This document shows positions 10,621-38,804 of a stretch of DNA of 64,000 nucleotides, in pieces. Every line of letters starts with the position of its first letter. The first letter of the stretch is position 1. The stretch is from Ignavibacteria bacterium (GTDB taxonomy: Bacteria > Bacteroidota > Ignavibacteria > Ignavibacteriales > SURF-24): NCBI GenBank assembly GCA_025612245.1, contig JAAXKQ010000003.1:1-64000 (forward strand). The letters are read 5' to 3'. A program made the translations under genes and the position numbers. The notes below the pieces were generated by a model, which did not search any database, was not told the DNA's origin, and was given only the letters and a program-made list of their open reading frames with translations.

Positions 10621-12002
10621 ACGGCAACATTTACAAAGGCTACAGGGGCGAGGCTCTAGAGGCTCTGAAGAATTTCGGGGCACAGGTCTGGAGCGACGTC
10701 GAGATAAAGACACAGACTGGTAAATTCACCGGCATAATTCTCCCCCGCTCGGAAACCGCCGATTCACTCCACGTAGTAATTAAGCTCCGTTCCGGCTACA
10801 ACATCGGAATCAATGCCTCCGGCATTCAGTCAATTACTGTTACCGGGCACAGGGAAGCCCATTATAAAATACCAGAGAAGGAATTTCCCTACAACCCGCA
10901 GAAACCAAAAGTAAAACTCCTGGGAACCGGAGGCACAATTGCAAGCCGCCTCGACTACAGGACGGGAGCCGTAATTCCGGCATTTTCACCCGGAGAACTC
11001 TATGGCTCGGTGCCTGAGCTGGCGGACATCTGTAACCTGGAGACAGAAAAACTCTACGGCGTCTTTAGCGAGAACATGGCACCCGAACAGTGGATCGGGA
11101 CGGCACAGGCAATAGGACGCGAAATTGAAAAAGGAGTGCAGGGAATCGTCATTGGCCACGGGACCGACACCATGCACCACACGGCCGCAATACTGTCCTT
11201 CATGGTGCAGAACTCTCCCATACCAATTGTCATGGTAGGCTCACAGCGCTCAAGCGACCGCCCTTCCTCCGACGCAGCCCTGAACCTCATGCACAGCGTC
11301 AAGACCGCCGCCGAGAGCGATATAGCTGAAATTATGGTTTGCATGTTCGGTCCTACTTCAGATGCATACGGACTTTTGCACCGCGGCACCAGGGTCAGAA
11401 AAATGCACTCCAGCTACAGGTCCACCTTCCGCACCATAGGCGACATACCGATTGCCATGGTAAGCCGCCAGAAGATTACACCCTTGAGGCAGGATTATAA
11501 AAGAAGGCGCCGAGACCGTAACGTAACCATAAATACGGCTTTTGAGGAAAAGGTAGGCATTGTTTATTATTATCCAAACATGCAGCCTGACATTATCGAC
11601 TCGATGATTGATAACGGTTATAAGGGAATTGTAATTGCGGGAACGGGCTTAGGCCACGTAAACAAGCCTCTTTACCCTGCCCTAAGGCGCGCCCATGAAA
11701 ATAACATTGCGGTATATATGACCGTACAGACGCTCTGGGGCTACGTGCAGATGTATGTTTATGACACGGGGCGCGACATGATGGAGCTTGGCGTGGTGCC
11801 TTCGGCCAACATGCTGCCCGAGGTGGCATACGTGAAACTCGGCTGGGCACTGGGGCAGACAAAAGACCCTGAGAAGGTAAAGGAAATAATGCTTACGCCT
11901 CTGGCAGGGGAAATTACCGAGCGAGAGCCCAGTAACGGATACCTGATCTTTCAAGGCGGCATTCCCGAGGTGGAGGAATTCATTTCGAAGTACGTCAAAT
12001 AG
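10617..12002 (+). CDS. gatD: Glutamyl-tRNA(Gln) amidotransferase subunit D
   Basis: GatD is the asparaginase-type glutaminase that supplies ammonia to GatE. An N-terminal beta domain of about 90 residues precedes the asparaginase fold. This extension and the partnership with GatE distinguish GatD from free asparaginases. The catalytic residues are all visible: Thr107 in GTGGTIAS, Thr183-Asp184 in HGTDTMHHT and Lys262 in RVRKMHSS. At 461 residues it is close to archaeal GatD. The start overlaps the gatE stop (ATGA), and a strong palindromic terminator follows, making a complete two-gene unit. I see no GatCAB or GlnRS gene in this window, so whether GatDE is the only route to Gln-tRNA(Gln) cannot be judged here. 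Confidence 0.93.
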   Translation: MNGNIYKGYRGEALEALKNFGAQVWSDVEIKTQTGKFTGIILPRSETADSLHVVIKLRSGYNIGINASGIQSITVTGHREAHYKIPEKEFPYNPQKPKVKLLGTGGTIASRLDYRTGAVIPAFSPGELYGSVPELADICNLETEKLYGVFSENMAPEQWIGTAQAIGREIEKGVQGIVIGHGTDTMHHTAAILSFMVQNSPIPIVMVGSQRSSDRPSSDAALNLMHSVKTAAESDIAEIMVCMFGPTSDAYGLLHRGTRVRKMHSSYRSTFRTIGDIPIAMVSRQKITPLRQDYKRRRRDRNVTINTAFEEKVGIVYYYPNMQPDIIDSMIDNGYKGIVIAGTGLGHVNKPLYPALRRAHENNIAVYMTVQTLWGYVQMYVYDTGRDMMELGVVPSANMLPEVAYVKLGWALGQTKDPEKVKEIMLTPLAGEITEREPSNGYLIFQGGIPEVEEFISKYVK

Positions 12003-12030
12003 CGCGCTGAAGTCTCAGGCATTCAATAGA

Positions 12031-12070
12031 AATGGCCCGGGACGTGCACGTCCCGGGCCATTTACTTTTT
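12031..12070 (+). terminator. Terminator of gatED
   Basis: The 32 bases from 12031 to 12062 (arms AATGGCCCGGGACGTG and its complement) form a perfect palindrome followed by TACTTTTTC. It begins 29 bases after gatD and ends well before the convergent Sel1 gene. Confidence 0.85.
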
Positions 12071-12148
12071 CTGAATATCTATATTAAAGACAAATTCCCC
12101 CGGCAGGCCATATATCCTTTGATATGCTCCAGTTGCTGAAGGAATTCG

Positions 12149-23430: not shown

Positions 23431-24783
23431 ATGGGAAATGCGACAATTGAAAGACCCCAGGGCAAGCTGGGAGTAATGATTGTAGGTATTAACGGGGCAG
23501 TTGCTACTACGTTTCTGGCAGGTGTTATGTCCATCCGAAAGGGCTTTGCAAAGCCTTTCGGATCACTGACTCAGATGGGAACCATCAGGCTCGGACACAG
23601 AAAGGAAGAAAAGTTTCCGATGATCAAGGACTTTGTTCCGCTTGCAGGTCTCGACGACCTGGTCTTCGGGGGCTGGGACATACGCGACGAGAACTGCTAT
23701 GAATCGGCATTGAATGCAAAGGTACTGGAGGAAAGAGACCTCATTAAAATCAGGGGGGACCTTGAGGCAATCCGCTCCATGCCCGGCGTATTTGAAAGAA
23801 AATTCGTAAAGCGCCTTAACGGCACGTGGATTAAAAAAGGCACGAGCAAATTCGACCTGATGGAACAGCTAAGAGACGACATCCGGACGTTCAAGGAAGC
23901 TCACGGTGTTGAGAGAATGGTGGTCATATGGTGCGGAAGCACTGAAATATTCCTGCCTGCAAACGGAGTTCACAAGAAGCTCGAGCTTTTTGAAGAAGGA
24001 ATGAAAAACAATAGCCCGAACATCCCGCCAAGTATGCTTTATGCCTATGCTGCAATTTCAGAGGGGGTGCCATTTATTAACGGGGCCCCGAACCTGACGG
24101 TCGATACACCTGCCATAATGGAGCTGGCCGAGAAAAAGCACGTCCCTGTAGCAGGCAAGGATTTCAAAACCGGGCAGACGCTCATAAAAACCGTCATCGC
24201 CCCGATGCTAAAGGCCAGAATGCTCGGCTTAAACGGCTGGTTCTCTAGCAACATACTCGGCAACCGCGACGGCGAGGTACTGGACGACCCGGGAAGCTTT
24301 AAGACAAAAGAAGAAAGCAAGCTATCCGTGCTTGAAGGCATACTTCAGCCCGAGCTTTACCCCGAGCTTTACGGCAACTTCTACCACAAGGTAAGAATCA
24401 ACTACTATCCGCCCAGGGGAGACAACAAGGAGGGATGGGATAATATAGACATATTCGGCTGGATGGGATACCAGATGCAGCTTAAGATCGATTTCCTCTG
24501 CAGGGATTCCATCTTAGCAGCCCCCATTGTGCTCGACCTCATTCTTTTTGCCGACCTGGCGCAAAGAAGCCGGATGTACGGCGTTCAGGACTGGCTGTCG
24601 TTCTACTTCAAGAGCCCAATGCACACGCCTGAGACCGTTGCAGAGCACGACCTCTTCATTCAGATGATGAGGCTAAAGAATAAGCTCAGGCAGATTATGG
24701 GTGAAGAGCTCATAACGCACCTTGAAGACGAAATGCCTTCAGGAAGGATTACACACAGAAAATTAAGAAAGGCCGTTAAATAA
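23431..24783 (+). CDS. ino1: Inositol-3-phosphate synthase
   Basis: This enzyme converts glucose 6-phosphate to 1D-myo-inositol 3-phosphate using tightly bound NAD. The Rossmann motif GVMIVGINGAVATTFLAG (residues 14-31) opens the protein. The family blocks VIWCGSTEIF, INGAPNLTVDTPA, VAGKDFKTGQT and NGWFSSNILGNRDGEVL follow, with the last containing the active-site region. The 450 residues fit the bacterial/archaeal branch. The start has AGAGGG before ATG. A clean terminator follows, so it is transcribed separately from the sugar cluster that begins 425 bases downstream. The location suggests that it supplies inositol phosphate to that cluster; this is inference. Confidence 0.9.
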   Translation: MGNATIERPQGKLGVMIVGINGAVATTFLAGVMSIRKGFAKPFGSLTQMGTIRLGHRKEEKFPMIKDFVPLAGLDDLVFGGWDIRDENCYESALNAKVLEERDLIKIRGDLEAIRSMPGVFERKFVKRLNGTWIKKGTSKFDLMEQLRDDIRTFKEAHGVERMVVIWCGSTEIFLPANGVHKKLELFEEGMKNNSPNIPPSMLYAYAAISEGVPFINGAPNLTVDTPAIMELAEKKHVPVAGKDFKTGQTLIKTVIAPMLKARMLGLNGWFSSNILGNRDGEVLDDPGSFKTKEESKLSVLEGILQPELYPELYGNFYHKVRINYYPPRGDNKEGWDNIDIFGWMGYQMQLKIDFLCRDSILAAPIVLDLILFADLAQRSRMYGVQDWLSFYFKSPMHTPETVAEHDLFIQMMRLKNKLRQIMGEELITHLEDEMPSGRITHRKLRKAVK

Positions 24784-25101: not shown

Positions 25102-25207
25102 TCAGACGGGTTCTTTCCTCTCCTGTGACAGTAGATGATATGGTGTATATGTGCAAAGTTTGGTTATTCCAGGGGCTGCAGAGTTTACTTTTAAGAAAAG
25201 GAACGAT

Positions 25208-26356
25208 ATGAGTAAGAACATACTGGTCACAGGCGGAGCAGGCTTCATCGGTTCACACCTTTGCGATGAGCTCCTTCGCAGCGGCTACAACGTGCGCGTT
25301 TTAGATAATCTTTCTCCTCAGGTCCACGGCTCAGACAGCAAAAGATTCCCAAATGGAAACAGGCCCTCTCCTCCCGATTACTTAAACAAAGATGCCGAAT
25401 TTATATATGGCGACGTCCGTAACAAGGAAGTCCTCGAAGGCGCGCTGAGGGGAATAGATGCCGTATTCCACCTGGCGGCCATCGTTGGAGTCGGGCAGAG
25501 CATGTATGAAATTGAAAGCTACATGAGCGTCAACAACCTCGGGACTGCAGTTCTTCTGGAGGCACTGATAAAAAAGCCCGTCGAAAAGATTGTCGTCGCC
25601 TCCAGCATGAGCATCTACGGCGAAGGGCTTTATAAGACTACGGAAGGAAAACTTAAAGTTGGGGCCATGCGCTCCTTGGAGCAGCTGAAAAAAGGAGTAT
25701 GGGAACTCTACGACTCCCGCCGGGGCAGCATACTAAGGCCCGTCCCTACGCCTGAGAGCAAAACCCCGTCGCTTTCTTCGGTCTACGCCCTTTCCAAATT
25801 CGACCAGGAACGGCTCTGTTTGATGATCGGGCGGGCATACAATATTCCCACCGTGGCGCTCAGGTTTTTTAACGTTTTCGGAACCAGGCAGTCCCTTTCC
25901 AACCCTTATACGGGCGTCCTTGCAATTTTTGCCTCCAGGTACCTTAATAATAATCCCCCCGTCATTTTTGAGGATGGCAACCAGATGCGTGACTTTGTGA
26001 GCGTCTACGACGTTGCCCGCGCCTGTCGGCTGGCTCTCGAAGTACAAAAGGCGCAGGGGCGCGTGTTCAATATTGGAAGCGGGCATGCGTACAAAATCCG
26101 CGAAGTTGCCGATAAAATGGCGCAGGTGCTTTCTAAAGAAAATCTTGAGCCGGTAATCCGCGGCAAGTACCGCGTTGGAGACATCAGGCATTGCTTTGCC
26201 GATATCTCGCTTGCAAGATCAGTGCTGGGCTACAAGCCCGCGGTTTCACTCGAAGAAGGGCTCGTTGAACTCTCCGGGTGGCTTTCAGGACAGATTGCAC
26301 AGGACCAGGTGGATTCAGCAAACTCCGAGCTTGAGAAAAGAGGACTTACAATATGA
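25208..26356 (+). CDS. NAD-dependent sugar nucleotide epimerase/dehydratase
   Basis: Extended short-chain dehydrogenase (382 residues). The ATG at 25208 follows AAAGGAACGAT and sits directly before the Rossmann strand ILVTGGAGFIGSH. The catalytic residues are in SSVYALSKFDQERL (YxxxK). The substrate domain has FFNVFGTRQSLSNPYTGV, typical of UDP-glucose/dTDP-rhamnose 4-epimerase relatives. It probably makes or interconverts the nucleotide sugar used by the glycosyltransferases downstream. First gene of the long plus-strand cluster, overlapping the next by 4 bases (ATGA). Confidence 0.9.
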   Translation: MSKNILVTGGAGFIGSHLCDELLRSGYNVRVLDNLSPQVHGSDSKRFPNGNRPSPPDYLNKDAEFIYGDVRNKEVLEGALRGIDAVFHLAAIVGVGQSMYEIESYMSVNNLGTAVLLEALIKKPVEKIVVASSMSIYGEGLYKTTEGKLKVGAMRSLEQLKKGVWELYDSRRGSILRPVPTPESKTPSLSSVYALSKFDQERLCLMIGRAYNIPTVALRFFNVFGTRQSLSNPYTGVLAIFASRYLNNNPPVIFEDGNQMRDFVSVYDVARACRLALEVQKAQGRVFNIGSGHAYKIREVADKMAQVLSKENLEPVIRGKYRVGDIRHCFADISLARSVLGYKPAVSLEEGLVELSGWLSGQIAQDQVDSANSELEKRGLTI

Positions 26357-28452
26357 AAAAGTTAAAGCTAGATTATCTGCCTAAAAGAAAACATGCAATA
26401 ATTGGAATAGTGGAATGGTTCAGGATAGGCGAAAAAGAAAGAGTGGAAAACATACTCTCCGACCTTAAAGCGCTCGGCATTCAGGAAATCAGAACCGGCT
26501 TCTCATGGGCTGAATGGTACACAAAGGAAGGCGAGGAATGGTACAAGTGGCTCATCCCGCGCCTAAAAGAGGAAGTTAGCATTCTCCCCTGCTTTACTTA
26601 TACGCCTCCTAATCTGGGACTTGAGCCGAAGGTTTCCAGCCCGCCGCGCAACCCGAAGGATTATACGGAATTCCTGGAATCCGTCTTAAGGGTTTTTGAG
26701 GGATTCTTCGAATGGGCAGAACTCTGGAATGAGCCAAACAACCTCTACGACTGGGACTGGAGGCTGGATCCGAACTGGGAGGTTTTTACCGAGATGATCG
26801 GAAAAGCAGCGCAGCACCTGAGGAAAAGAGAAATTAAGACGGTTCTTGGCGGCATGTCGCCTATCGATCCTAACTGGATTGAGCTCCTTTGCCAGAGAAA
26901 CATCATGCAGCATTTTGATGCCGTTGGAATTCACGGGTTTCCGGGCACGTGGGAATTTGACTGGAGCGAGTGGCCGCAGGCTATAAGCAAGGTGCGTGAA
27001 GTCCTCAGCCGCAACAAAATGACGCCTGAGATCTGGATTACGGCGGCAGGATATTCCACCTGGCGGCACGACGAATTCAGGCAGCTCAGAAATTTTGCCA
27101 ATTTCATGGAGGCACCAGTACAAAGGGCTTACTGGCATTCGGCGCAGGACATACACCCCGACCTGCCGTTCCAGGAAGTGTTCCACGGCGATGAGAGGCA
27201 TTACCACTTCGGCATTAAATATGCCGACGGACGCCCGAAGCTTCTTTACCGAGTCTGGGCAAAAGAGGGCTTAAACGGCGTAAAGCAGATGGCAAAGTTC
27301 GGCACAATTAAGGACACCAACCTCACTGAAAAGACAAAGATCATTGAGGTAAAGAAACCAAAGAGCACAGGACTGCAAAGGCGTAAAAAAGAAGAAAGCC
27401 GCCCCGTACTCATTACAGGCGGAGCAGGCTTTATTGGGACAAACCTTGCCCACAGGCTCCTTTCTGCCGGTACACCGGTAATCATATATGACAACCTTTC
27501 CAGACCCGGTGTCGAGGAAAACCTCCAGTGGCTTATTGACACGCACGGCGAAATGCTGCAGGTAAAGGTTGCCGACGTGCGCGACCCTTATGCCGTGCGC
27601 GAGTGCGTGCAGCAGGCAAAAAGCGTGTTCCACTTTGCAGCCCAGGTTGCCGTAACAACCAGCCTTGAAAATCCGGTAAATGACTTCGAGGTAAACCTAA
27701 GAGGGACATTAAACCTGCTTGAGGCCTTAAGATCACTCAGCAAGCCGATACCGCTTTTATTTACTTCGACAAACAAGGTCTATGGCGAGCTTACGGACAT
27801 AAAAATGCAGAAAGACACCATGCGCTATTACCCTGCCGATCAATCTGTAAAAATGCAGGGAATTAGCGAAAAAAGGCATCTCGATTTTCACAGCCCCTAC
27901 GGGTGTTCAAAAGGATCGGCCGACCAGTATATTATAGATTACGCGCGCATATACAACATACCTAACGTCGTCTTCCGTATGAGCTGCATATACGGAACTC
28001 ACCAGTTCGGAACAGAAGACCAGGGCTGGGTGGCATTCTTCCTTCTCAAGGCCCTAAGAGGTGAACCTATTACGATCTATGGCGACGGGCTTCAGGTAAG
28101 AGACATTCTTTTTGTCGACGACCTGATAGACGCCATGCTCAAGGCGCACGAGCAAATAGACATAACGCGCGGCAACGCATATAATATCGGAGGCGGCCCG
28201 GCAAATACGGTAAGCCTTCTGGAACTCCTTGAAATGATTGAGCAGCTCCACGGGCAGAAGCCCAAGGTAAACTTCAGCTCCTGGCGCCAGGGCGACCAGA
28301 GGTACTATGTTTCCAATACGGAATCTTTTCGCGCCGTCACCGGCTGGCTCCCGCAGATTTCAGCACGCGAAGGCGTTGGAAAACTCTACCACTGGCTCTT
28401 AAAAAACAGAAAGAGCTCTTCTTTCCACAGAATGAAAAAGGTGGCACAATGA
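26353..28452 (+). CDS. Fusion of a glycosidase-like barrel and a CDP-paratose-2-epimerase-like SDR
   Basis: Residues 15-315 form a clan-A-type TIM barrel related to beta-xylosidases. The acid/base glutamate is present in ELWNEPNN (Glu127), but at the strand where the nucleophile is expected the sequence reads IWITAAGYS, with Ala231 in place of Glu, so hydrolysis by the usual retaining mechanism is unlikely. A basic linker (about 325-350) joins it to an SDR domain: VLITGGAGFIGTNL from 352, STNKVYGE and SPYGCSKGSADQ with Tyr516/Lys520. The SDR resembles CDP-paratose 2-epimerase and related nucleotide-sugar epimerases. The barrel may hold or sense the glycan product while the epimerase acts; this is inference. 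Overlaps of 4 bases on both sides place it in the operon. The circularly permuted protein at 36691 is its closest relative in the window. Confidence 0.85.
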   Translation: MKKLKLDYLPKRKHAIIGIVEWFRIGEKERVENILSDLKALGIQEIRTGFSWAEWYTKEGEEWYKWLIPRLKEEVSILPCFTYTPPNLGLEPKVSSPPRNPKDYTEFLESVLRVFEGFFEWAELWNEPNNLYDWDWRLDPNWEVFTEMIGKAAQHLRKREIKTVLGGMSPIDPNWIELLCQRNIMQHFDAVGIHGFPGTWEFDWSEWPQAISKVREVLSRNKMTPEIWITAAGYSTWRHDEFRQLRNFANFMEAPVQRAYWHSAQDIHPDLPFQEVFHGDERHYHFGIKYADGRPKLLYRVWAKEGLNGVKQMAKFGTIKDTNLTEKTKIIEVKKPKSTGLQRRKKEESRPVLITGGAGFIGTNLAHRLLSAGTPVIIYDNLSRPGVEENLQWLIDTHGEMLQVKVADVRDPYAVRECVQQAKSVFHFAAQVAVTTSLENPVNDFEVNLRGTLNLLEALRSLSKPIPLLFTSTNKVYGELTDIKMQKDTMRYYPADQSVKMQGISEKRHLDFHSPYGCSKGSADQYIIDYARIYNIPNVVFRMSCIYGTHQFGTEDQGWVAFFLLKALRGEPITIYGDGLQVRDILFVDDLIDAMLKAHEQIDITRGNAYNIGGGPANTVSLLELLEMIEQLHGQKPKVNFSSWRQGDQRYYVSNTESFRAVTGWLPQISAREGVGKLYHWLLKNRKSSSFHRMKKVAQ

Positions 28453-29618
28453 ACGACGAAAACTTAAATAATAACGGCGAAATCCTTAAGACCGGAGAAC
28501 CCATTCCGGTAGAAAGCAAAAAGGATAAACCAGGTAATACCCCGGCTTCAGGCACGACACCTCTGGCCCCACCTGAAGAAGGCATACCAGACTTTGCCGC
28601 CCGCGAAGAGGATAAAATTAAAACCGAAGAAGAAAAAAACGAAAGCATATGGACCGATATCATGCGGAGCGCAATTTTCCAGGGACCAGGGCAGGTTGCA
28701 GTAAGGTACGTGGCAAAGCCGGAGCCCGCGCAGAATGAAGTGCTCATACGCCTTTTGGGCTGCGGGCTCTGCTCGTCCAACCTGCCTGTCTTTGAAGGAA
28801 GGTCATGGTTTAATTACCCCTTTGAACCCGGCGCGCCCGGGCACGAGGGCTGGGGCATAATTGAGGAAGTTGGAAAAGACGTAAAAGATCTTGAGCCCGG
28901 ACAAAGCGTTGCGGCACTTTCATACCACGCCTACGCCGAATACGACACCGCTCCTGCTGAAAACGTTGTCAGGCTTCCGGATGAATTAAAAGACCGCCCT
29001 TTCCCCGGCGAACCCCTGGGATGCGCAATGAATATCTTTAAGAGGAGCCTCATAAAGGAAGGCCAGACAGTGGCAATAATCGGTATCGGCTTCCTGGGTG
29101 CCCTTTTGAGCAACCTGGCTTCAAAACAGGGAGCCCGTGTAATTGCAATTTCCAGGCGCCCTTTCTCCCTTGAAATTGCAAAAGACTACGGGGCTTCTGA
29201 ATCAATACTTATGGATGACCATTGGAGAATAATTGAAGAGGTCAGGTCGCTTACAGGCGGAGAATTCTGCGACTGCGTCATTGAAGCTACGGGCCACCAG
29301 TGGCCGCTCGACCTGGCAGGAGAGCTTACCAGGGTAAGAGGCAGGCTAATAATTGCGGGCTACCACCAGGACGGGCCCAGGCAGGTAAACATGCAGCTCT
29401 GGAACTGGAGAGGCCTGGACGTCATCAACACGCACGAACGGGAACAGAAAGTTTACATGGACGGGATCCGCGCGGCAGTAGACGCCGTAATTGACGGAAA
29501 GATGGACCCTTTCCCCCTTATTACGCACTCATTTACCCTTGACCAGATATCAAAGGCCTTTGAGGTAACGGCACAAAGGCCGGAGGGATTTCTAAAGGCG
29601 GTAATTAACCTCAAATAA
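28449..29618 (+). CDS. Zinc-type medium-chain dehydrogenase with an acidic N-terminal extension
   Basis: Alcohol/polyol dehydrogenase of the MDR superfamily. The first 65 residues are low-complexity, rich in Glu, Lys, Asn and Pro, and lack any domain. The ATG at 28449 has AAAGGTGG upstream and overlaps the previous stop by 4 bases, so the extension seems real. The catalytic domain follows: CGLCSSNLP and PGHEGWG supply the usual catalytic-zinc ligands, and the NAD fold has VAIIGIGFLGALL. The four-cysteine structural-zinc lobe is absent. In this cluster it could oxidise a sugar or cyclitol hydroxyl. Confidence 0.85.
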   Translation: MNDENLNNNGEILKTGEPIPVESKKDKPGNTPASGTTPLAPPEEGIPDFAAREEDKIKTEEEKNESIWTDIMRSAIFQGPGQVAVRYVAKPEPAQNEVLIRLLGCGLCSSNLPVFEGRSWFNYPFEPGAPGHEGWGIIEEVGKDVKDLEPGQSVAALSYHAYAEYDTAPAENVVRLPDELKDRPFPGEPLGCAMNIFKRSLIKEGQTVAIIGIGFLGALLSNLASKQGARVIAISRRPFSLEIAKDYGASESILMDDHWRIIEEVRSLTGGEFCDCVIEATGHQWPLDLAGELTRVRGRLIIAGYHQDGPRQVNMQLWNWRGLDVINTHEREQKVYMDGIRAAVDAVIDGKMDPFPLITHSFTLDQISKAFEVTAQRPEGFLKAVINLK

Positions 29619-29664: not shown

Positions 29665-30708
29665 ATGAATAACGAAGTGCTGCAGCAAAAGACCATTTCA
29701 GCTCCGGTAAGCCTGAAGCCCCGCCTGGGCTTTCTTGGCGTGGGCTGGATCGGGCGCAACAGAATGGAATCCATACTTAAAGGCGGCAATGCCGAGGCTC
29801 TCTACATTGTGGATCCCATAAATGAGATGGCACTTACGGCGAAAAAACTTGCACCCAAAGCCTCTGTCCTCAAAAACCTGAAGGAGCTCCTAAAGAAAAC
29901 AGACATAGAAGGAATTGTAATTGCAACGCCAAGCGCGCTTCATGCCGAAGAAAGCATTATGGCGCTAGAATCCGGTAAGGCAGTATTCTGCCAGAAACCC
30001 CTGGGGAGGAATAATAAAGAGGTCAGAGAAGTAATTGAAGCCGCCAGGAAAGCAGACAGGCTCCTTGGCGTGGACCTTTCTTACAGGTTCTTAAATGGCA
30101 TACGCAAGATGAAACAGATAATAGACGATAAGGCAATAGGCCATGTTTATGCAGTGGACCTCGTTTTCCACAACGCATACGGACCCGACAAGGATTGGTT
30201 CTATAACCCGCAGCTTTCAGGCGGCGGATGCGTAATGGACCTCGGGATTCACCTGATCGACCTTGCTTTATGGATGCTGGACTATCCGGAGGTTGAATTG
30301 GTTACAAGCCGCCTTTTTACCAAAGGCAGTTTTTTTAAGGGCTCAGAAGACACTGTGGAGGATTATGCATCGGCAAGAATAGACCTCAGGGGGGATACAA
30401 CTGTGAACCTCTCATGCTCATGGAGGCAGTCGGCAGGCCGCGACGCCGTAATCGAGGCTTCATTTTACGGCACCGAAGGCGGAGTCTCGCTTAAAAATCT
30501 GAACGGAACGTTCTACGACTTTAAGGCCGAACGCTACCGCTGGACGGCCCACGAGACCTTATCTGAGCCTCCAGAGGACTGGGGAAAGGGCGCAGCACTC
30601 AACTGGACAGAAAAGATGTCTAAAAGCACGAAATATGATCCTGAGATCGAACAGATTATCAGGGTCTCCGAAGTAATTGATGCAATTTATGGAAGGAACA
30701 ATCATTAG
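29665..30708 (+). CDS. Gfo/Idh/MocA family oxidoreductase
   Basis: NAD(P)-dependent sugar or inositol dehydrogenase family. The dinucleotide fold is GFLGVGWIGRNRM (residues 23-35). The conserved EKP motif is CQKPLGRNN here, so Glu is replaced by Gln while the key Lys remains. The substrate-side histidine block is VMDLGIHLIDLALWML. The 347 residues are standard. With the MDR dehydrogenase immediately upstream and inositol-3-phosphate synthase nearby, an oxidised sugar or inositol intermediate is plausible, though no aminotransferase is present to turn a ketone into an amine. Confidence 0.9.
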   Translation: MNNEVLQQKTISAPVSLKPRLGFLGVGWIGRNRMESILKGGNAEALYIVDPINEMALTAKKLAPKASVLKNLKELLKKTDIEGIVIATPSALHAEESIMALESGKAVFCQKPLGRNNKEVREVIEAARKADRLLGVDLSYRFLNGIRKMKQIIDDKAIGHVYAVDLVFHNAYGPDKDWFYNPQLSGGGCVMDLGIHLIDLALWMLDYPEVELVTSRLFTKGSFFKGSEDTVEDYASARIDLRGDTTVNLSCSWRQSAGRDAVIEASFYGTEGGVSLKNLNGTFYDFKAERYRWTAHETLSEPPEDWGKGAALNWTEKMSKSTKYDPEIEQIIRVSEVIDAIYGRNNH

Positions 30709-30720
30709 CTGAGGTACATC

Positions 30721-31035
30721 ATGCCCGAATCCAATAATACGACTGACCATAATCTTATCAGGAAGTGGGTTGAAGAAAGAAAAGGAAAACCGGCAACCGT
30801 AAAGGGCACGGAAAGCAAGGGCGAGGAGGCAGGACTACTGAGGATAGATTTTCCGGGATATTCAGGAGAGGGCAAGCTGGAGGAAATATCCTGGGAGGAG
30901 TTCTTCAATAAATTTGAGGAATCGAAGCTTGCTTTCCTCTACCAGGATAAGACACACGACGGCAAGCAGAGCAGGTTTAATAAGTTCCTCAGCCGCGAAG
31001 GCGAGCAGGCACAGGGAGCAGGGAAAAAGCAGTAA
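30721..31035 (+). CDS. Small conserved hypothetical protein of the glycan cluster
   Basis: A 104-residue soluble protein with a good start (GAGGTACATC before ATG). The conserved-looking core is HNLIRKWVEERKGKPATVKG, then LLRIDFPGYSG and LEEISWEEFFNKF followed by LAFLYQD and SRFNKFLSR. I recall similar small proteins from other bacteria that are mislabelled as 1,4-alpha-glucan branching enzyme, although the size rules that activity out. Its stop overlaps the next start by one base (TAATG), which suggests translational coupling with the glycosyltransferase. Function unknown. Confidence 0.8.
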   Translation: MPESNNTTDHNLIRKWVEERKGKPATVKGTESKGEEAGLLRIDFPGYSGEGKLEEISWEEFFNKFEESKLAFLYQDKTHDGKQSRFNKFLSREGEQAQGAGKKQ

Positions 31036-32192
31036 TGGCCTTCGACTTAAACAGTCCGCACAGCATTCCAAAGCTCCGCCGCATACTCATGACGGCAGAC
31101 ACCATAGGAGGCGTATGGACTTATGCGCTCGAACTTTCAGAGGCCCTGAAGCCTTACGGAGTTGAAATATACCTGGCAACCATGGGTTCTCCCCTCACTG
31201 AAAAGCAAAAGGAAGCTCTCGGAATGGCCGGTAACATCAGACTCTTTGAAAGTTCATACAAGCTCGAATGGATGGAAGAGCCCTGGAAGGACGTTGAAGA
31301 AGCGGGGAAATGGCTACTGGAGCTTGAAGCCGCCGTTCAGCCCGATGTAATTCACCTGAACGGATACTCGCACGGCGCAACCCCCTTCCGGTCCCCTAAA
31401 CTCGTCGTCGGGCATTCATGCGTTTATTCCTGGTATTATGCCGTAAAACAGCATGCACCACACGAGGCGTGGCATGAGTATAAAAGAAAAGTTAGCGAAG
31501 GACTTATTAAGGCGGATCTTGTAACTGCTCCCACAAAGGCAATGCTTTCCATGCTGAGGCGTCACTACGGGAGTTTCAGGACTGCGGGTGCCGTTTATAA
31601 TGCCCGGAAGGCCGAAGATTTTCTGCCTGGCATTAAGGAAGAAATGGTTCTTTCTGCCGGAAGGCTCTGGGATGAGGCCAAGAACGTTTCAATGCTGGCC
31701 TATATATCGCCCCGCCTTAAGTGGCCCGTTTATATGGCCGGGGAAAAAGAAGACCCCGAGGGACGCTTTATTCAGACGTTTAATGACGTCAACTGGCTTG
31801 GGAGGCTTCCTTCGGTTGAACTTGCAGCCTGGATGAAAAAGGCTTCCATATTCGCGCTTCCTGCAAGATATGAGCCTTTCGGGCTTTCGCCCCTAGAGGC
31901 GGCTTTGTCGGGCTGCGCGCTCGTCCTTGGGGATATACCGAGCCTGCGTGAAGTGTGGCAGGATGCAGCTCTTTTTATAAAGCCGGACGACCATGAGGGG
32001 CTCAAGAAAACGATAAATGCCCTTATTGGTAATGAAGAGCTAAGGCTAAATAACGTGAAGAAGGTCAGAAAACGCGCCTTATTCTTCACGCCTGAAAGGA
32101 TGGCCAGGGGCTATCTTTCGCTTTACGAGAACATATTACAAAGGCATAAGGCATATTCCCCGGGCGTTAGGCGCCAGGCAAAATGCCCATGA
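31035..32192 (+). CDS. GT4-family glycosyltransferase
   Basis: A GT-B fold enzyme of 385 residues. The N-terminal donor/acceptor loop is ADTIGGVWTYALELSEAL, and VIHLNGYSHG follows. The C-terminal nucleotide-sugar site has LSAGRLWDEAKN and the ExxE-like ALPARYEPFGLSPLEAALSGC. It transfers a sugar from a nucleotide donor and is probably cytosolic. The start follows GGAGCAGGGAAAAAG and is coupled to the small protein upstream. Which sugar is used cannot be read from the sequence. Confidence 0.9.
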   Translation: MAFDLNSPHSIPKLRRILMTADTIGGVWTYALELSEALKPYGVEIYLATMGSPLTEKQKEALGMAGNIRLFESSYKLEWMEEPWKDVEEAGKWLLELEAAVQPDVIHLNGYSHGATPFRSPKLVVGHSCVYSWYYAVKQHAPHEAWHEYKRKVSEGLIKADLVTAPTKAMLSMLRRHYGSFRTAGAVYNARKAEDFLPGIKEEMVLSAGRLWDEAKNVSMLAYISPRLKWPVYMAGEKEDPEGRFIQTFNDVNWLGRLPSVELAAWMKKASIFALPARYEPFGLSPLEAALSGCALVLGDIPSLREVWQDAALFIKPDDHEGLKKTINALIGNEELRLNNVKKVRKRALFFTPERMARGYLSLYENILQRHKAYSPGVRRQAKCP

Positions 32193-32338
32193 AGTTAATT
32201 AGCACATAAAAACATGGTTTTATGGCTGCACGGTAATTTAAGTCCCCGGTAGACGCTCTGTCAGTAGTACTCTTCGGCACACACATTTCAGAGCCCTGAA
32301 GGGGCTTGGAACTATTTTAATAATTTTCAGAGGGCTCA

Positions 32339-33496
32339 ATGAAAATAGTGCTGTTTTATCATTCACTTGTTTCAGACTGGAACCATGGCAACGCACATTT
32401 TTTGAGGGGAATTCTAGCCGAGCTCATGCACAGGGGGCACGAGGTGAAGGTCTTTGAGCCGCGTGGAGGCTGGAGCAGGGAAAACCTCGTCTCTCTTTAC
32501 GGGGAAGAACCCATCAGGCAATTCCACAGAACTTTCCCGGATATGCAGAGCACAGAATATACCTTGGATGCTCTTGACCTTGAGCGGGAGCTCCAGGGAG
32601 CAAGCCTCGTAATCGTACACGAGTGGAATGATCCTGAACTGGTAAGGAAAATCGGCAGCCACAGAAAATTGAACCCTGGCTATAAGCTTTTATTCCACGA
32701 TACTCACCACCGCTCACTTACCGAACCTGAAAAGATGAGACAGTTCGACCTCTCCGGTTACGACGGCGTTCTTGCATACGGGGAAGTAATAAAGGAAATT
32801 TATCTTTCCAGGGGATGGATACAAAGGGCATGGACCTGGCATGAGGCGGCTGACGTAAGGATATTTCACCCTATTGAAGGCGTTGAAAAGACTGGGGACC
32901 TCATCTGGATCGGCAACTGGGGAGACGAGGAAAGGACGCAGGAATTGTATGAATACCTGCTGAAACCCGTAAGAAACCTCAGCCTTAAGGCTATGGTGCA
33001 CGGAGTGCGCTATCCGGAAAGCGCCTTAAGAAACCTGGAGGAAGCGGGAATTGAATATGGCGGCTGGCTGCCCAATTACATGGTACCCGAAGTCTTCGCC
33101 CGCTTTAGGCTTACGGTCCACATTCCCCGCAAACCTTACGCCAAAGCCCTAAAAGGCATTCCAACGATCAGGCCCTTTGAGGCCCTGGCGTGCGGAATAC
33201 CACTTGTCTCATCCCCGTGGGAAGACTCCGAAGGGCTTTTTACTTCCGGTGAAGACTTTCTCATGGCCAGCAATGAAAAGCAGATGGAAAGCCATATCAA
33301 GGAAGTCCTTAACGATAAATCCCTGGCCGAGTCACTCTCAAGGCACGGGCGGCTTACAATCCTTAAACGCCACACCTGCGGCCACCGCGTCGATGAGCTC
33401 CTGAAGATATACAGGCAGATGGGCATTGAATCAGCCTTCAGCAGTGAAGAGGGCCCCTCCCCAATTCAGCCAAATAAAAACGAGGAAGTTAAATGA
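32339..33496 (+). CDS. CgeB-like glycosyltransferase 1
   Basis: One of four related proteins in this cluster, named for the Bacillus spore-surface protein CgeB and containing a C-terminal glycosyltransferase-1-like domain. The N-terminal loop is SDWNHGNAHFLRGIL. The C-terminal half has IWIGNWGDEERTQEL and the donor-site helix IRPFEALACGIPLVSSPWED. The start follows AGAGGGCTCA after a 146-base gap, the largest gap in this part of the cluster, so a second promoter could lie there. Copies 1, 2 and 3 overlap by 4 bases each, which implies co-translation. It is the most divergent of the four. Confidence 0.85.
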   Translation: MKIVLFYHSLVSDWNHGNAHFLRGILAELMHRGHEVKVFEPRGGWSRENLVSLYGEEPIRQFHRTFPDMQSTEYTLDALDLERELQGASLVIVHEWNDPELVRKIGSHRKLNPGYKLLFHDTHHRSLTEPEKMRQFDLSGYDGVLAYGEVIKEIYLSRGWIQRAWTWHEAADVRIFHPIEGVEKTGDLIWIGNWGDEERTQELYEYLLKPVRNLSLKAMVHGVRYPESALRNLEEAGIEYGGWLPNYMVPEVFARFRLTVHIPRKPYAKALKGIPTIRPFEALACGIPLVSSPWEDSEGLFTSGEDFLMASNEKQMESHIKEVLNDKSLAESLSRHGRLTILKRHTCGHRVDELLKIYRQMGIESAFSSEEGPSPIQPNKNEEVK

Positions 33497-34602
33497 AAAG
33501 AGTCTTGAAAATTTCTTTTTTCGGGTCGAGCCTGGTCTCGGCATACTGGAATGGCGCAGCCACTTACTACAGGGGCATTCTTAAGGCGCTTTTCGAAAAG
33601 GGGCACGACATTACCTTCTTTGAACCCGATTTCTTTGAGCGCCAGCAGCACAGGGATATACCGGACCCAGAGTATTCAAAAAGCGTCGTCTACCCCGCCT
33701 TCGATGAATCCGGCGTCAGGAAGGCGCTCGAAGATGCCGGCAGCTCAGACATAATAATTAAGGCCAGCGGCGTCGGTATATTCGACGAACTCCTTGAAAA
33801 AGAGGTGCTTACTTTAAGAAGGCCCGGGACCAAGATAATCTTCTGGGACGTGGATGCTCCGGCCACGCTTGACCGCGTGCAGACTAACCCTCAGGACCCG
33901 TTCAGGGAGCTGATTCCACAGTACGACTTAATTCTCACCTATGGCGGGGGTGACCCGGTTGTAGGTGCCTACACGGAACTCGGGGCAAAAAAGTGCGTAC
34001 CAATATATAACGCGCTTGACCCAACGACACACTTCCCTGCTGCGCCTGAGGACAGGTTCAAAGGAAAGCTCGGCTTTCTGGGCAACCGTATGCCCGACCG
34101 GGAGATGAGGGTATGGGAGTTTTTCTTCAAGCCCGCACAGATGCTTCCCATGGAGCATTTCATATTGGGCGGCTCCGGCTGGCGCGAGTGGGCTCCCGAG
34201 GTTCCGAACGTCGACTTCCTCGGGCATGTTTATACAAAGGACCACAATGCATTTAACTGCTCTACGGATGCCGTGCTTAATATCAGCCGCGAAAGCATGG
34301 CGCGCTATGGATTCTCCCCCGCTACCAGGATATTTGAAGCCGCTGGAGCAGGAGCCTGCATAATAACGGATAAGTGGGATGGTATTGAGCTATTCCTGGA
34401 GCCCGGGAAAGAAATACTGGTTGCAGAACGGGGCGAGGACGTGGTAAGAATATTAAAGGAAACCGACAGGGATTTGTCACAAAAGATCGGGCAGGCGGCA
34501 AAGGAAAGGGTCCTCAAGGAACACACCTATTCGCACAGGGCCACACAGCTTGAAAAGCTTCTTCTTCATGCCGGAGAAGAAAAAAAGGAGGCCCAAAGAT
34601 GA
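33493..34602 (+). CDS. CgeB-like glycosyltransferase 2
   Basis: 369 residues with the shared opening SAYWNGAATYYRGIL and the donor-site block RIFEAAGAGACIITDKWDGI. The middle has IIFWDVDAPATLDRVQ and the GLP-like LGFLGNRMPDREMRV, which match copies 3 and 4 more closely than copy 1. Overlaps of 4 bases on both sides. The separate but related copies probably add successive sugars or act on different acceptors. Confidence 0.87.
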   Translation: MKRVLKISFFGSSLVSAYWNGAATYYRGILKALFEKGHDITFFEPDFFERQQHRDIPDPEYSKSVVYPAFDESGVRKALEDAGSSDIIIKASGVGIFDELLEKEVLTLRRPGTKIIFWDVDAPATLDRVQTNPQDPFRELIPQYDLILTYGGGDPVVGAYTELGAKKCVPIYNALDPTTHFPAAPEDRFKGKLGFLGNRMPDREMRVWEFFFKPAQMLPMEHFILGGSGWREWAPEVPNVDFLGHVYTKDHNAFNCSTDAVLNISRESMARYGFSPATRIFEAAGAGACIITDKWDGIELFLEPGKEILVAERGEDVVRILKETDRDLSQKIGQAAKERVLKEHTYSHRATQLEKLLLHAGEEKKEAQR

Positions 34603-35681
34603 AAAGCCGGGAGCTTCAAATTGTAATACTCGGGCTTTCAATTACTTCGGCCTGGGGTAACGGGCATGCAACAACTTACAGGGGGCTGGTAAGAGAACTT
34701 GCCCGAAGGGGTCACAATGTACTTTTTCTTGAACGCGACCTCCCCTGGTACGCTTCAAACAGGGACATGCCGCAGCCGCCATTCGGATGCACCAGGATTT
34801 ATTCAAGCCTTGAGGAGCTCAAGGAAGTCTACCAAGACGAAATAAAAAAAGCCGACATGGTAATCGTGGGCTCTTACGTCCCCGAGGGCGTTGAGGTGGG
34901 CAAATGGGTAAACCTGGTGGCCCGAAATACTGCTTTCTACGACATCGATACTCCCGTCACGCTTTCAAAACTTGAACGGAAAGACTACGAGTATCTTTCC
35001 CCGGAACTCATACCGCGCTACAGGCTTTATCTTTCTTTTACCGGGGGCCCCACGCTTATGCGCCTTGAAAAAGATTTCGGCAGCCCGATGGCAAGAGCTC
35101 TTTACTGCTCGGTTGACCCAGAAAAGTACTACCCTGAGAACGGCTCTATAAAATATGACCTTGGATACCTGGGCACGTACAGCAACGACCGCCAGCCCGT
35201 ACTTGAACATCTGTTGCTTCAACCGGCCAGGTTATGGGAAGAAGGGCGCTTTATTGTAGCGGGTCCGCAGTACCCTGAAAGTATCCGGTGGCCCGGAAAC
35301 GTCGAACGCGTATATCACCTGAATCCTTCAGAGCACAGGAAGTTTTATAACTCGCAGCGCTTTACCCTTAACGTTACAAGAGCCGACATGACTAAGGCCG
35401 GATATTCGCCAAGCGTAAGGCTCTTTGAGGCAGCCGCCTGCAGTACACCCATTATAAGTGACTACTGGGAAGGGCTAAATACAATTTTCACACTTAACGA
35501 GGAGATACTCATCAGCCATTCACCCGAAGAGACTCTTAAGTACTTAAGAGCCTTCCCCGAGGAAACAAGGATTAAGATGGCTGAAAAAGCAAGAGAGCGC
35601 GTTCTTCACTCCCATACAGCGGCCCAAAGAGCCGAAGAGCTCGAAGGCTACATTCTGGAAGCGCTTGGAAGTAAACTCTGA
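34599..35681 (+). CDS. CgeB-like glycosyltransferase 3
   Basis: 360 residues with SITSAWGNGHATTYRGLV, FYDIDTPVTLSKL, LGYLGTYSNDRQPVLEHLL and RLFEAAACSTPIISDYWEGL. It is clearly the closest relative of copy 4 at 37719, with which it shares the WGNGHAT loop, the YDIDTPVTL block and the TYxxDRQ motif. The two probably arose by duplication and were then separated by the methyltransferase and permuted-barrel genes. Confidence 0.88.
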   Translation: MKSRELQIVILGLSITSAWGNGHATTYRGLVRELARRGHNVLFLERDLPWYASNRDMPQPPFGCTRIYSSLEELKEVYQDEIKKADMVIVGSYVPEGVEVGKWVNLVARNTAFYDIDTPVTLSKLERKDYEYLSPELIPRYRLYLSFTGGPTLMRLEKDFGSPMARALYCSVDPEKYYPENGSIKYDLGYLGTYSNDRQPVLEHLLLQPARLWEEGRFIVAGPQYPESIRWPGNVERVYHLNPSEHRKFYNSQRFTLNVTRADMTKAGYSPSVRLFEAAACSTPIISDYWEGLNTIFTLNEEILISHSPEETLKYLRAFPEETRIKMAEKARERVLHSHTAAQRAEELEGYILEALGSKL

Positions 35682-35796: not shown

Positions 35797-36627
35797 ATGA
35801 ACAGGACTGAGACGGCATTTGAAACTCTGGAGACTTTTATCAGTGATCCTAAAACACCGCTGGAGCGGAAGATATTCGACATTGGTCCCTGGTTCCATAA
35901 CCTCCACCTTCCAGATGGAACCCAGACGGCGCCAAACCACCCTCTGGGTGACTTCCCTTCCTTCAAGTGGGAGAAAATTTCAGGGGCAATCCCCAAAAGC
36001 CTCAAAGGCTGGAATGTGCTCGACATAGGATGCAACGCGGGCTTTTACAGTTTTGAACTTGCCAGGCGAGGCGCTTATGTTACGGGAATTGACCTGGACG
36101 GCCATTACCTGAGGCAGGCGCGCTGGGCTGCCAGGCAGTTCGGTCTGCAGGAAAAGGTAAAGTTCAGAAAAATGCAGATCTACGACCTTGCCCATTCCGG
36201 CACCACATACGACATGGTCGTCTTTATGGGGGTTTTCTATCACCTGCGATATCCCCTTCTTGCACTCGACATTGTGGCGCAGAAGTTCAAGAAGCTCCTG
36301 CTTTTCCAGACGCTTACAATGCCAGGTGAAGAGGTAATGGAAATGGTTGATGACCTGCCTATTGAAAACCGGGAAGTGATGCTTAATTCCGGCTGGCCCA
36401 AGATGGCATTTATTGAAAACAGCCTTGCCGGGGATGCAACAAACTGGTGGGCCCCGAACCATGCTGCCGTTGAAGCAATGCTCCGCTCCGGGGGACTTGA
36501 GGTCGTAAAGCGTCCCGATCATGAAGTCTACCTCTGCACGCATTCAGGCATTGAAAAGTCCGGGAATTATGAGCCCGAGGAGCTTTCTTCCGCCGCTAAA
36601 AGTGTCAGGAGTGTCATAACCGGATAA
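35797..36627 (+). CDS. SAM-dependent methyltransferase
   Basis: Class I methyltransferase of 276 residues. Motif I is VLDIGCNAGFYSFELA (near residue 73), followed by VTGIDLDGHYLRQARWAA and a post-motif block with FMGVFYHLRYPLLALD. The N-terminal WFHNLHLPDG and NHPLGDFPSFKW recall a methyltransferase family that accompanies sugar clusters of this type (TIGR04290, from memory). It probably O-methylates a sugar in the product. It is separated by 115 bases from the upstream CgeB gene and by 63 bases from the permuted-barrel gene. Confidence 0.87.
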   Translation: MNRTETAFETLETFISDPKTPLERKIFDIGPWFHNLHLPDGTQTAPNHPLGDFPSFKWEKISGAIPKSLKGWNVLDIGCNAGFYSFELARRGAYVTGIDLDGHYLRQARWAARQFGLQEKVKFRKMQIYDLAHSGTTYDMVVFMGVFYHLRYPLLALDIVAQKFKKLLLFQTLTMPGEEVMEMVDDLPIENREVMLNSGWPKMAFIENSLAGDATNWWAPNHAAVEAMLRSGGLEVVKRPDHEVYLCTHSGIEKSGNYEPEELSSAAKSVRSVITG

Positions 36628-36690: not shown

Positions 36691-37638
36691 ATGATTGAAG
36701 CTATTAAGTTCTGGAACGAGCCAAATAATCTTTCGCACTGGGACTTTCAGATGGACCCCCAGTGGAAAGAATTCAGCTACATGATTAAGCTTGCGGCTGA
36801 TTCGGTTAGGAATCTCGCTCCCGATTTGAAACTGGTGCTGGGAGGTATCTCACCAATTGACCCTTTGTTTATACAGCTCTTAAAAGGCCATGGACTCCTG
36901 GATTCACTCGATGCAGTTGCCATACATGGGTTTCCGCTGGACTGGAATCACTGGTCAATATACGACTGGCCCAAAAAGATTGAGGAAATTGAGGCCGTGG
37001 CAGAGCTTCCCATCTGGGTTACCGAAGTGGGGGTCTCTTCTTTCGGAGCCGACGAAGTTCAGGTATTCGGGCTTAATAAAACCGCTGAACTTCTTCTAAA
37101 GCGAGCCGAAAGAGTTTACTGGTACAGCCTGCTTGACCTGCCCCCGGCCTGGGAGGCTACCACCAGGCACAAGGAAAGCGAAGGCAGCGCTTATTACAGG
37201 CACTTTTACATGGGACTCATACGTGCCGACGGCACGCCAAAGCCCGCCGTGGAGCATTTTAATCCTGAAATGGGAATCTGCCAGTGGATCCATTTTGAGG
37301 ACCACAGGCTAGAGGAGATAGTAGGGTGGCTGAGAAAACTGAAAGTTAAAAAGCTGAGAACAGGCATAAGCTGGGCCGACTGGTTCCGCCCTAATGCGCT
37401 CGAATGGTTCGACAGGCAGATGCAGGCAATCAGTGAGTTTGATACAACCGTTACGCTTTGCTTTACTCCCCCCTCGCGCGGCAAAAGACCCCACCATACA
37501 AGCCCGCCCGAGGACCCGGGCGAGTTTGCTTACTTTGCCGAAGAGGTGGTAAAGCGCTATGTCCTGAAGGACAGGGCTTCGGCAGATGAAAGCACAGGGG
37601 GCGGCAAGCTTAAAAGGGGGAATTCTGAAGAAGCATAG
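36691..37638 (+). CDS. Circularly permuted glycosidase-like TIM barrel
   Basis: The 315-residue protein starts directly at the acid/base strand (KFWNEPNNLSHWDF, Glu10) and proceeds through GGISPIDP, AIHGFPLDW and the nucleophile strand IWVTEVGVS (Glu112). After the last barrel element (MGLIRADGTPKPAVE) come the strands that open the barrel in the fusion protein at 26353: MGICQWIHFED, LKVKKLRTGISWADWF and VTLCFTPPSRGKRPHHTS, residues 194-290. The order is therefore B-A instead of A-B. A strong binding site (AAAGGAG, 5 bases before ATG) and only 63 bases to the previous gene argue against a truncated N-terminus. Both catalytic glutamates are kept, so unlike the fusion it may be an active beta-glycosidase or transglycosidase. 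The last 25 residues are a charged tail. Confidence 0.85.
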   Translation: MIEAIKFWNEPNNLSHWDFQMDPQWKEFSYMIKLAADSVRNLAPDLKLVLGGISPIDPLFIQLLKGHGLLDSLDAVAIHGFPLDWNHWSIYDWPKKIEEIEAVAELPIWVTEVGVSSFGADEVQVFGLNKTAELLLKRAERVYWYSLLDLPPAWEATTRHKESEGSAYYRHFYMGLIRADGTPKPAVEHFNPEMGICQWIHFEDHRLEEIVGWLRKLKVKKLRTGISWADWFRPNALEWFDRQMQAISEFDTTVTLCFTPPSRGKRPHHTSPPEDPGEFAYFAEEVVKRYVLKDRASADESTGGGKLKRGNSEEA

Positions 37639-37718: not shown

Positions 37719-38804
37719 ATGAAACTTGTAATATTTGGACTTACCATCAGTTCTTCCTGGGGCAACGGGCATGCTACTATATGGCGAGGACTCTGCCGTG
37801 CAATGATAAGAAGGGGCTATAAGATAACTTTCTTTGAGCACGACGTGCCCTACTATGCAGCACACAGGGATTTGCATGAGATGCCGGGAATGGAAATTAT
37901 TCTCTACGGCAACTGGCAGGATGTAAGATCTACCGCCCATGAAAAGCTCAAAGACGCCGACATTGGAATGGTTACTTCTTACTGCCCCGATGCTATTGAA
38001 GCAGGCAGACTGCTCCTTTCTTCCAGGTGCGGCCTTAAGGTGTTCTACGACCTGGATACACCCGTTACATTAAAGTGCCTTTCCGCAGGAGAGAAGGTTG
38101 CGTACGTAGGTCCCGGGGGATTTGAAGACTACGACCTTGTTCTCAGCTATACCGGCGGCATTGCACTTGAAGAATTAAAAACCAAGCTCAGGGCCAGGAA
38201 AACGGCTGCCCTTTACGGCAGCGCTGACCCCGAGACTCATAAGCCAGTCCCGGAAGTTGAAAAATTCAGGTGCGACCTATCTTACCTAGGCACCTACGCC
38301 AGTGACCGCCAGGACGCACTTAACAGGTATTTCATTGTGCCGGCAGAAATGCTGCCCGGGAAACGCTTTATAATCGGGGGATCCCAGTATCCGGAGCTCT
38401 TCCCATGGCGCAGCAACATCTGGTACCTGGCTCACATTGCCCCTCCGGAGCACCCGGCATTCTACTCATCCTCACACTTTACCCTTAACGTTACGCGCGG
38501 TGCAATGGCGGAGATGGGTTACTGCCCTTCAGGAAGGCTCTTTGAGGCTGCCTCATGCGGAGTTCCAATTATCAGCGACAGCTGGCAGGGGCTGGAAGAG
38601 TTCTTTACCCCGGGGAAGGAAATCGTTACAGTGCAAAGTTCGCAGGACGTCGTGGATGCGCTGAATATGACAGAAGAGGAAAGGCAAAAAATTATACGAG
38701 CTGCGAGACAAAGGGTCCTTTCCGAGCACACACCGCAGCAGAGGCTCAAAAAGCTGGAGAAGATTCTAGAGGAGTACTACGAAAACAACAGAAAGGAGAA
38801 GTAA
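37719..38804 (+). CDS. CgeB-like glycosyltransferase 4
   Basis: 361 residues. SSSWGNGHATIWRGLC, VFYDLDTPVTLKCL, LSYLGTYASDRQDALNRYF and RLFEAASCGVPIISDSWQGL place it next to copy 3. The stop codon is one base before the ATG of the nucleotidyltransferase, so the two are probably translated together. The start has AGG upstream at a slightly long spacing. Confidence 0.88.
   Translation: MKLVIFGLTISSSWGNGHATIWRGLCRAMIRRGYKITFFEHDVPYYAAHRDLHEMPGMEIILYGNWQDVRSTAHEKLKDADIGMVTSYCPDAIEAGRLLLSSRCGLKVFYDLDTPVTLKCLSAGEKVAYVGPGGFEDYDLVLSYTGGIALEELKTKLRARKTAALYGSADPETHKPVPEVEKFRCDLSYLGTYASDRQDALNRYFIVPAEMLPGKRFIIGGSQYPELFPWRSNIWYLAHIAPPEHPAFYSSSHFTLNVTRGAMAEMGYCPSGRLFEAASCGVPIISDSWQGLEEFFTPGKEIVTVQSSQDVVDALNMTEEERQKIIRAARQRVLSEHTPQQRLKKLEKILEEYYENNRKEK

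Follow-up and report, generated by a model that had tools for sequence, protein, structure and literature searches.

The gene at 36691–37638 of the window, the whole stretch of 64,000 nucleotides of Ignavibacteria bacterium DNA analysed here, encodes a protein that is circularly permuted relative to the N-terminal domain of a fusion protein whose own gene lies at 26353–28452; no segment of the barrel is missing from the permuted protein. Taken as a whole, our observations are best explained by a genuine, functional and naturally permuted TIM barrel of the PslG/GH39 type, and we hold this reading with considerable confidence. The gene sits in a biosynthetic cassette; the members of the cassette and the parts of the two barrels are as follows.

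23431–24783, + strand: inositol-3-phosphate synthase-like gene (own sequence and annotated cassette counterparts in relatives)
25151–26356, + strand: first NAD-dependent epimerase of the cassette
26353–28452, + strand: fusion protein, a linear (β1–β8) GH39-like domain (residues ~16–310) and an NAD-dependent epimerase (residues ~350–690)
27043–27045, + strand: Ala231 (GCG), which takes the place of the nucleophile in the linear domain; the acid/base Glu127 is retained there
28449–29618, + strand: Zn-dependent dehydrogenase of the cassette
29665–30708, + strand: Gfo/Idh/MocA oxidoreductase of the cassette
31035–35681, + strand: run of glycosyltransferases (31035, 32339, 33493, 34599; annotated counterparts in relatives)
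35797–36627, + strand: methyltransferase of the TIGR04290 (Rta_06860) family (343.9 bits, cut-off 300), whose gene usually lies just upstream of the permuted one
36691–37638, + strand: circularly permuted GH39/PslG-like (β/α)8 glycosidase of 315 aa, P0001 (BLASTP, alignments and model)
36691–37257, + strand: segment X of P0001, residues 1–189, β4 to β8/α8, equivalent to fusion residues ~118–300
36718–36720, + strand: Glu10, predicted acid/base on strand β4, aligned with PslG Glu165
37024–37026, + strand: Glu112, predicted nucleophile on strand β7, aligned with PslG Glu276
37258–37563, + strand: segment Y of P0001, residues 190–291, β1 to β3/α3, equivalent to fusion residues ~16–115
37564–37635, + strand: non-conserved C-terminal tail, residues 292–315, outside the matches to most relatives
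37719–38804, + strand: further glycosyltransferase directly downstream of the permuted gene

An earlier note on this DNA had proposed that P0001 is a barrel with its halves in swapped order relative to the product of 26353–28452. The coordinates and the motifs that it quoted are exact, and BLASTP returns two matches in swapped order: residues 3–184 of P0001 correspond to residues 120–296 of the fusion protein (38% identity, E 4e-36), and residues 194–288 to residues 17–113 (34% identity, E 1e-17). Both parts lie well above chance, the N-terminal block scoring 309 against a mean of 33 and a maximum of 64 in 1000 composition-preserving shuffles, and the C-terminal block 171 against a mean of 28 and a maximum of 59 in 2000 such shuffles. 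The order is thus swapped as proposed, but the pieces are not halves, as five strands stand in front and three behind. The note had put its own reading at risk on two points. It would have given way if the C-terminal ~95 residues were unrelated to the fusion protein, and these are clearly homologous to residues 17–113; a segment missing upstream of 36691 was the other concern, and there is none, relatives having the same start and order. In alignments with permuted relatives, segments X and Y tile the linear domain almost fully, with few residues lost at the cut. The new termini fall between α3 and β4, and the old termini are joined via the α8–β1 linker. The strong ribosome binding site claimed for the start is also present, an AAGGAG 5 nt 5' of the ATG, and the same Met is the annotated start in relatives, where it usually overlaps the methyltransferase stop by 4 nt. 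An in-frame stop lies 7 codons 5' of the ATG and leaves no room for an in-frame barrel segment before the start.

Structure prediction, which the note had suggested as a check, gives two complete eight-stranded barrels with cyclically shifted strand order. The AlphaFold2 model of the permuted protein (pLDDT 89.7, pTM 0.88) orders its strands β4–β8, β1–β3, whereas that of the linear domain (pLDDT 85.2, pTM 0.86), built on an input alignment consisting mainly of fragments of permuted relatives, has the canonical order. In the permuted model the fold is complete, the old termini are joined and the new termini open the chain at one point; the barrel is predicted to close as in the linear form. Order-dependent aligners place the linear model on PslG (Z 27.3 over 291 residues; Foldseek E 7e-16), whereas the permuted model yields only generic TIM barrels (Z 13.2 at best; Foldseek E 6e-4) along with a match to PslG over just 176 residues, in searches that rule out no other clan GH-A family and in which the absence of a row is uninformative. 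With the predicted models, this is the result expected for a permutation.

The sequence profile leads to the same family. A profile of the permuted proteins matches PslG in swapped stretches, residues 192–290 with 19–128 and residues 2–153 with 131–301 (E 1.1e-6; E 0.0026 with P0001 as a single sequence), and thereby ties the protein to a classified GH39/PslG-like member. E10 aligns with PslG Glu165 and E112 with Glu276, and the two glutamates stand at the catalytic positions, at the ends of β4 (NEP) and β7. In PslG, Glu165 is the acid/base and Glu276 the nucleophile, the latter having been trapped covalently in a crystal (PMC11912335). Known GH39 members run from β1 to β8, while P0001 runs β4–β8–β1–β3, and for this reason we call it a permuted relative and do not file it as an ordinary GH39 member. 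The Pfam Glyco_hydro_cc match of P0001 scores 20, below the gathering score of 21, and none of the NCBIfam models matched it. P0001 shows neither the GH-H clan motifs I–IV nor homology to GH13 or GH70: Pfam and PDB sequence searches list no such match, and its catalytic residues align with those of PslG, an enzyme of clan GH-A. Weak or generic matches from family models and from order-dependent structure aligners account for the vague names carried by hundreds of database proteins; the label ‘beta-xylosidase’ on relatives in PLSDB records is an automatic NCBI name.

The permuted form is an old, intact and conserved family, not a local curiosity. Hundreds of genomes, which represent 13 phyla or more, encode proteins with the same start (MIEA..xWNEPNN) and about 60–92% identity. 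A homologue search of the kind that the note had recommended finds the same order in them, the gene usually overlapping the stop codon of a TIGR04290 methyltransferase gene. Two other genomes of the window's family have homologues of P0001 that are 92% and 79% identical over ~300 residues. A scan of one genome per species yielded 525 stretches encoding relatives, the best 80 of which all match from residue 1 to at least residue 290 at 59–78% identity; the titles range over Bacteroidota, Verrucomicrobiota, Chloroflexota, Pseudomonadota, Nitrospirota, Thermodesulfobacteriota, Bdellovibrionota, Fibrobacterota, Gemmatimonadota, Planctomycetota, Acidobacteriota, Armatimonadota and Myxococcota. A plasmid collection holds 147 records that match P0001 (94 at 60–80% identity), while no relatives were found in the viral contigs searched. 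The permuted order is kept in independent genomes, complete replicons included. Among open reading frames with both barrel segments we counted 102 distinct permuted genes, and the start motif MIEA..WNEPNN of the permuted proteins is invariant or nearly so. Two permuted copies per genome occur in G1099 (C34, C17) and in Bradyrhizobium sp. 195 (plasmids H1, H105). Homologues are also present in Azospirillum and Sinorhizobium, and in S. meliloti the permuted gene is carried on pSymB. The window's permuted gene groups with those of Verrucomicrobiota, Chloroflexota and Desulfuromonadales, not with those of other Bacteroidota, and the gene is absent from most genomes of the window's order; horizontal transfer is therefore likely.

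The family travels in recognisable company. Directly 3' of a TIGR04290-like methyltransferase gene stand 60 of the 102 permuted genes, mostly with a 4 nt overlap. The cassettes of relatives carry genes annotated as encoding an inositol-3-phosphate synthase, a histidine phosphatase, the TIGR04290 methyltransferase, a TIGR04295 radical SAM protein, two epimerases, several glycosyltransferases, a UDP-glucuronate decarboxylase, a zinc-binding dehydrogenase and a Gfo/Idh/MocA oxidoreductase, and counterparts of many of these genes are present in the window. The glycosidase domain occurs in this setting in three arrangements. In R. etli, Tistrella, Paracoccus sp. AK26 and Geminicoccaceae it is linear and fused to the second epimerase. 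Elsewhere it is free and permuted, with the second epimerase unfused in 40 of the 42 loci that have that epimerase nearby. The window combines the fused linear and the permuted forms, as do 13 of the 57 genomes behind permuted loci. Across 385 alphaproteobacterial genomes, eight have the permuted form, six the fused form and none both; one Rhizobium plasmid has the two together.

What does the linear copy do where a permuted copy is present? Both catalytic residues are retained in 19 of 32 fused linear domains; the R. etli fusion is an example of an intact copy. The losses take several forms, namely a change of the nucleophile from E to A and the replacement of NEP by ANP, NQP and others, and some copies have lost the acid/base too, or the acid/base instead of the nucleophile. 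The relatives of the window's fused domain also lack the nucleophile. In the Myxococcota, the fused domains L072, L229 and L232 read WNEPD(K/R) and I(S/T)ATG, a loss of the nucleophile in a lineage separate from that of the window. To explain the losses, the best tree needs five changes or more, or three if only well-supported branches are counted. Each loss whose context is known falls in a genome that also has a permuted gene, and the fused-only genomes that were searched whole, G1843 included, have intact catalytic residues. This association is a pattern, not proof: the comparison offers only two lineage-independent pairs, and there are genomes in which both copies are intact. In the window genome, we propose, the permuted copy would be the catalytic one, while the linear domain without its nucleophile would be non-hydrolytic and serve in binding or scaffolding. 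A different arrangement, in which the two copies are both active and carry out two different sugar reactions of the pathway, is rather unlikely. Bacteroidota L098, L213–L216 and L218 and Rhizobium sp. CB3090 (L248) do keep an intact fused copy beside the permuted one, but the fused domains of the window, of its relatives and of the Myxococcota cited above have no nucleophile, in others the acid/base has gone as well or instead, and the sampled alphaproteobacterial genomes carry one form or the other. A fused GH–epimerase gene on a Xanthomonas sacchari plasmid (L026, ~9990–12090) is apparently frameshifted, with β1–β3 and β4–β8 in different frames.

How the permutation arose can be approached from a tree of sequences rotated into a common order. 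Rooted with linear GH39-like enzymes, this tree supports three groups, though not their mutual branching order: all permuted proteins fall together (100/100), and so do the fused domains (95/87) and the free-standing linear proteins (99/94). A single permuted clade with a linear outgroup indicates that the linear order is ancestral and that, going by these sequences, the permutation probably arose once. A second GH39-like protein of ordinary order, from a ~510 aa open frame elsewhere in the window genome (G000:C42:60145–60495, L004), was used as outgroup. In one genome (L223) the place of the permuted gene, directly after a TIGR04290-like methyltransferase gene, is taken by a free-standing linear gene. 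L283 has, at ~5980–6558 on the minus strand, the remnant of a free-standing linear glycosidase with an internal deletion of roughly β2–β5, in a cassette of the same kind. We suggest that a linear gene gave rise to the permuted one on a single occasion, when it was duplicated and then partly truncated. By fission, a linear gene could instead have split into pieces that later fused again in the same permuted order; we judge this route unlikely. No tandem intermediate with extra barrel segments before or after the permuted gene was flagged among the permuted and linear open reading frames screened, a result that favours fission. Long stop-to-stop frames upstream of some relatives contain no β1–β3 segment and coincide with the overlapping methyltransferase gene in another frame, and no tandem repeats were found around the genes. 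Against fission, the join is the natural α8-to-β1 linker without a foreign insert and few residues are lost at the cut. Both features are what a duplication with later truncation should leave, and the same model has been put forward for GH70 (PMC4919382).

Is the permuted barrel an enzyme? The catalytic Glu pair is present in 102 of 102 permuted proteins, and across very divergent hosts the NEP, HGFP and W(V/I)(T/S)E.G motifs hardly vary, if at all. By this conservation the protein appears functional, and enzymatic activity is likely. We predict a retaining mechanism, either of a β-glycosidase or of a transglycosidase, in which Glu10 serves as acid/base and Glu112 as nucleophile. The probable task of the protein is to trim or transfer a sugar on a glycan or glycoside intermediate in the cytoplasm; the chain leaves no room for a signal peptide and the gene is located in a biosynthetic cassette, both of which point to a cytoplasmic biosynthetic role. 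It is improbable that the protein is instead a pseudo-enzyme, or a regulatory or binding protein whose barrel folds without hydrolysing glycosides. The cluster is biosynthetic and not degradative, a signal peptide is absent and the Pfam score falls just short of gathering, all of which would suit such a protein; yet both glutamates and their neighbouring motifs are near-invariant, whereas the fused copies show what decay looks like. The chance of an assembly error or local rearrangement, by which a misassembled repeat could in principle have put fragments of a broken linear barrel in the wrong order in one genome, is negligible, because start, order and length are the same in the two family members (92% and 79%) and in hundreds of genomes, complete replicons of other phyla carry the permuted form, and the frame is uninterrupted, with catalytic residues in every one of the 102 proteins and no tandem repeats nearby. 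The earlier note was right to argue against two broken fragments: the same start and order, in the two window relatives and in independent genomes at large, rule out a broken or misassembled linear barrel.

How does the permuted barrel relate to known systems? PslG (GH39, clan GH-A; PDB 5bx9, 4zn2 and 9g17) is the nearest solved relative by profile and by the fold of the linear copy, and it shares the catalytic pair, Glu165/Glu276 aligning with E10/E112. It differs in having the order β1–β8 and extra C-terminal residues where P0001 has β4–β8, β1–β3, and sequence identity between the two is low (16–20%). Together with the free-standing linear form, the fused linear GH39-like domain is the nearest homologous group; it shares the cassette and the catalytic positions but has the ordinary strand order, the epimerase fusion and, in many genomes, catalytic decay. 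To our knowledge, only a few TIM-barrel enzymes are circularly permuted in nature, and among glycosidases the most familiar example is GH70. This family is permuted relative to GH13, its order running from α3–β4 to β8–α8–β1 to β3, and a linear counterpart, GTFC, exists (PMC4919382). P0001, which starts at β4 and ends at α3, is likewise a permuted glycosidase TIM barrel, and by its model it would be cut between β3 and β4, nearly where GH70 is cut (PMC4919382). GH70 belongs to clan GH-H, which is unrelated to clan GH-A, and its catalytic residues are unrelated to those of P0001; its members are large secreted multidomain transglucosidases, whereas P0001 consists of one barrel of 315 aa and is encoded in a biosynthetic cassette. 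Circular permutation also relates the TIM barrels of transaldolase and class I aldolase (PMC2213659); these are different enzymes, with a shift of two units, and do not lie side by side in a single gene cluster. A search of mainly open-access literature found no description of a permuted barrel in GH39 or elsewhere in clan GH-A.

The case adds an independent glycosidase permutation, in a clan other than that of GH70 and at nearly the same cut. Here linear and permuted copies stand in one gene cluster and a free-standing linear counterpart is found in another genome, so that the permutation becomes testable as an evolutionary event, with one cassette, the same catalytic positions and three chain arrangements. 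We tentatively bring these threads together in a wider scenario that is somewhat less likely than not: a single permutation in clan GH-A would have spread across bacterial phyla with a biosynthetic cassette and taken over catalysis, its linear relative would repeatedly and independently have become an epimerase-borne pseudo-enzyme domain, and the cut would have converged with that of GH70. If this is true, the convergence suggests that glycosidase barrels open preferentially at the α3/β4 junction. The cassette itself appears to be uncharacterised; no paper on it was found under TIGR04290, TIGR04295 or Rta_06860 in the same mainly open-access literature. Genes for manganese catalase, DUF1003, ferritin-like or hemerythrin proteins are found close to the plasmid cassettes L020, L022, L025 and L027, and several of the hosts were isolated from desert or soil; the cassette product may have a connection with desiccation or oxidative stress.
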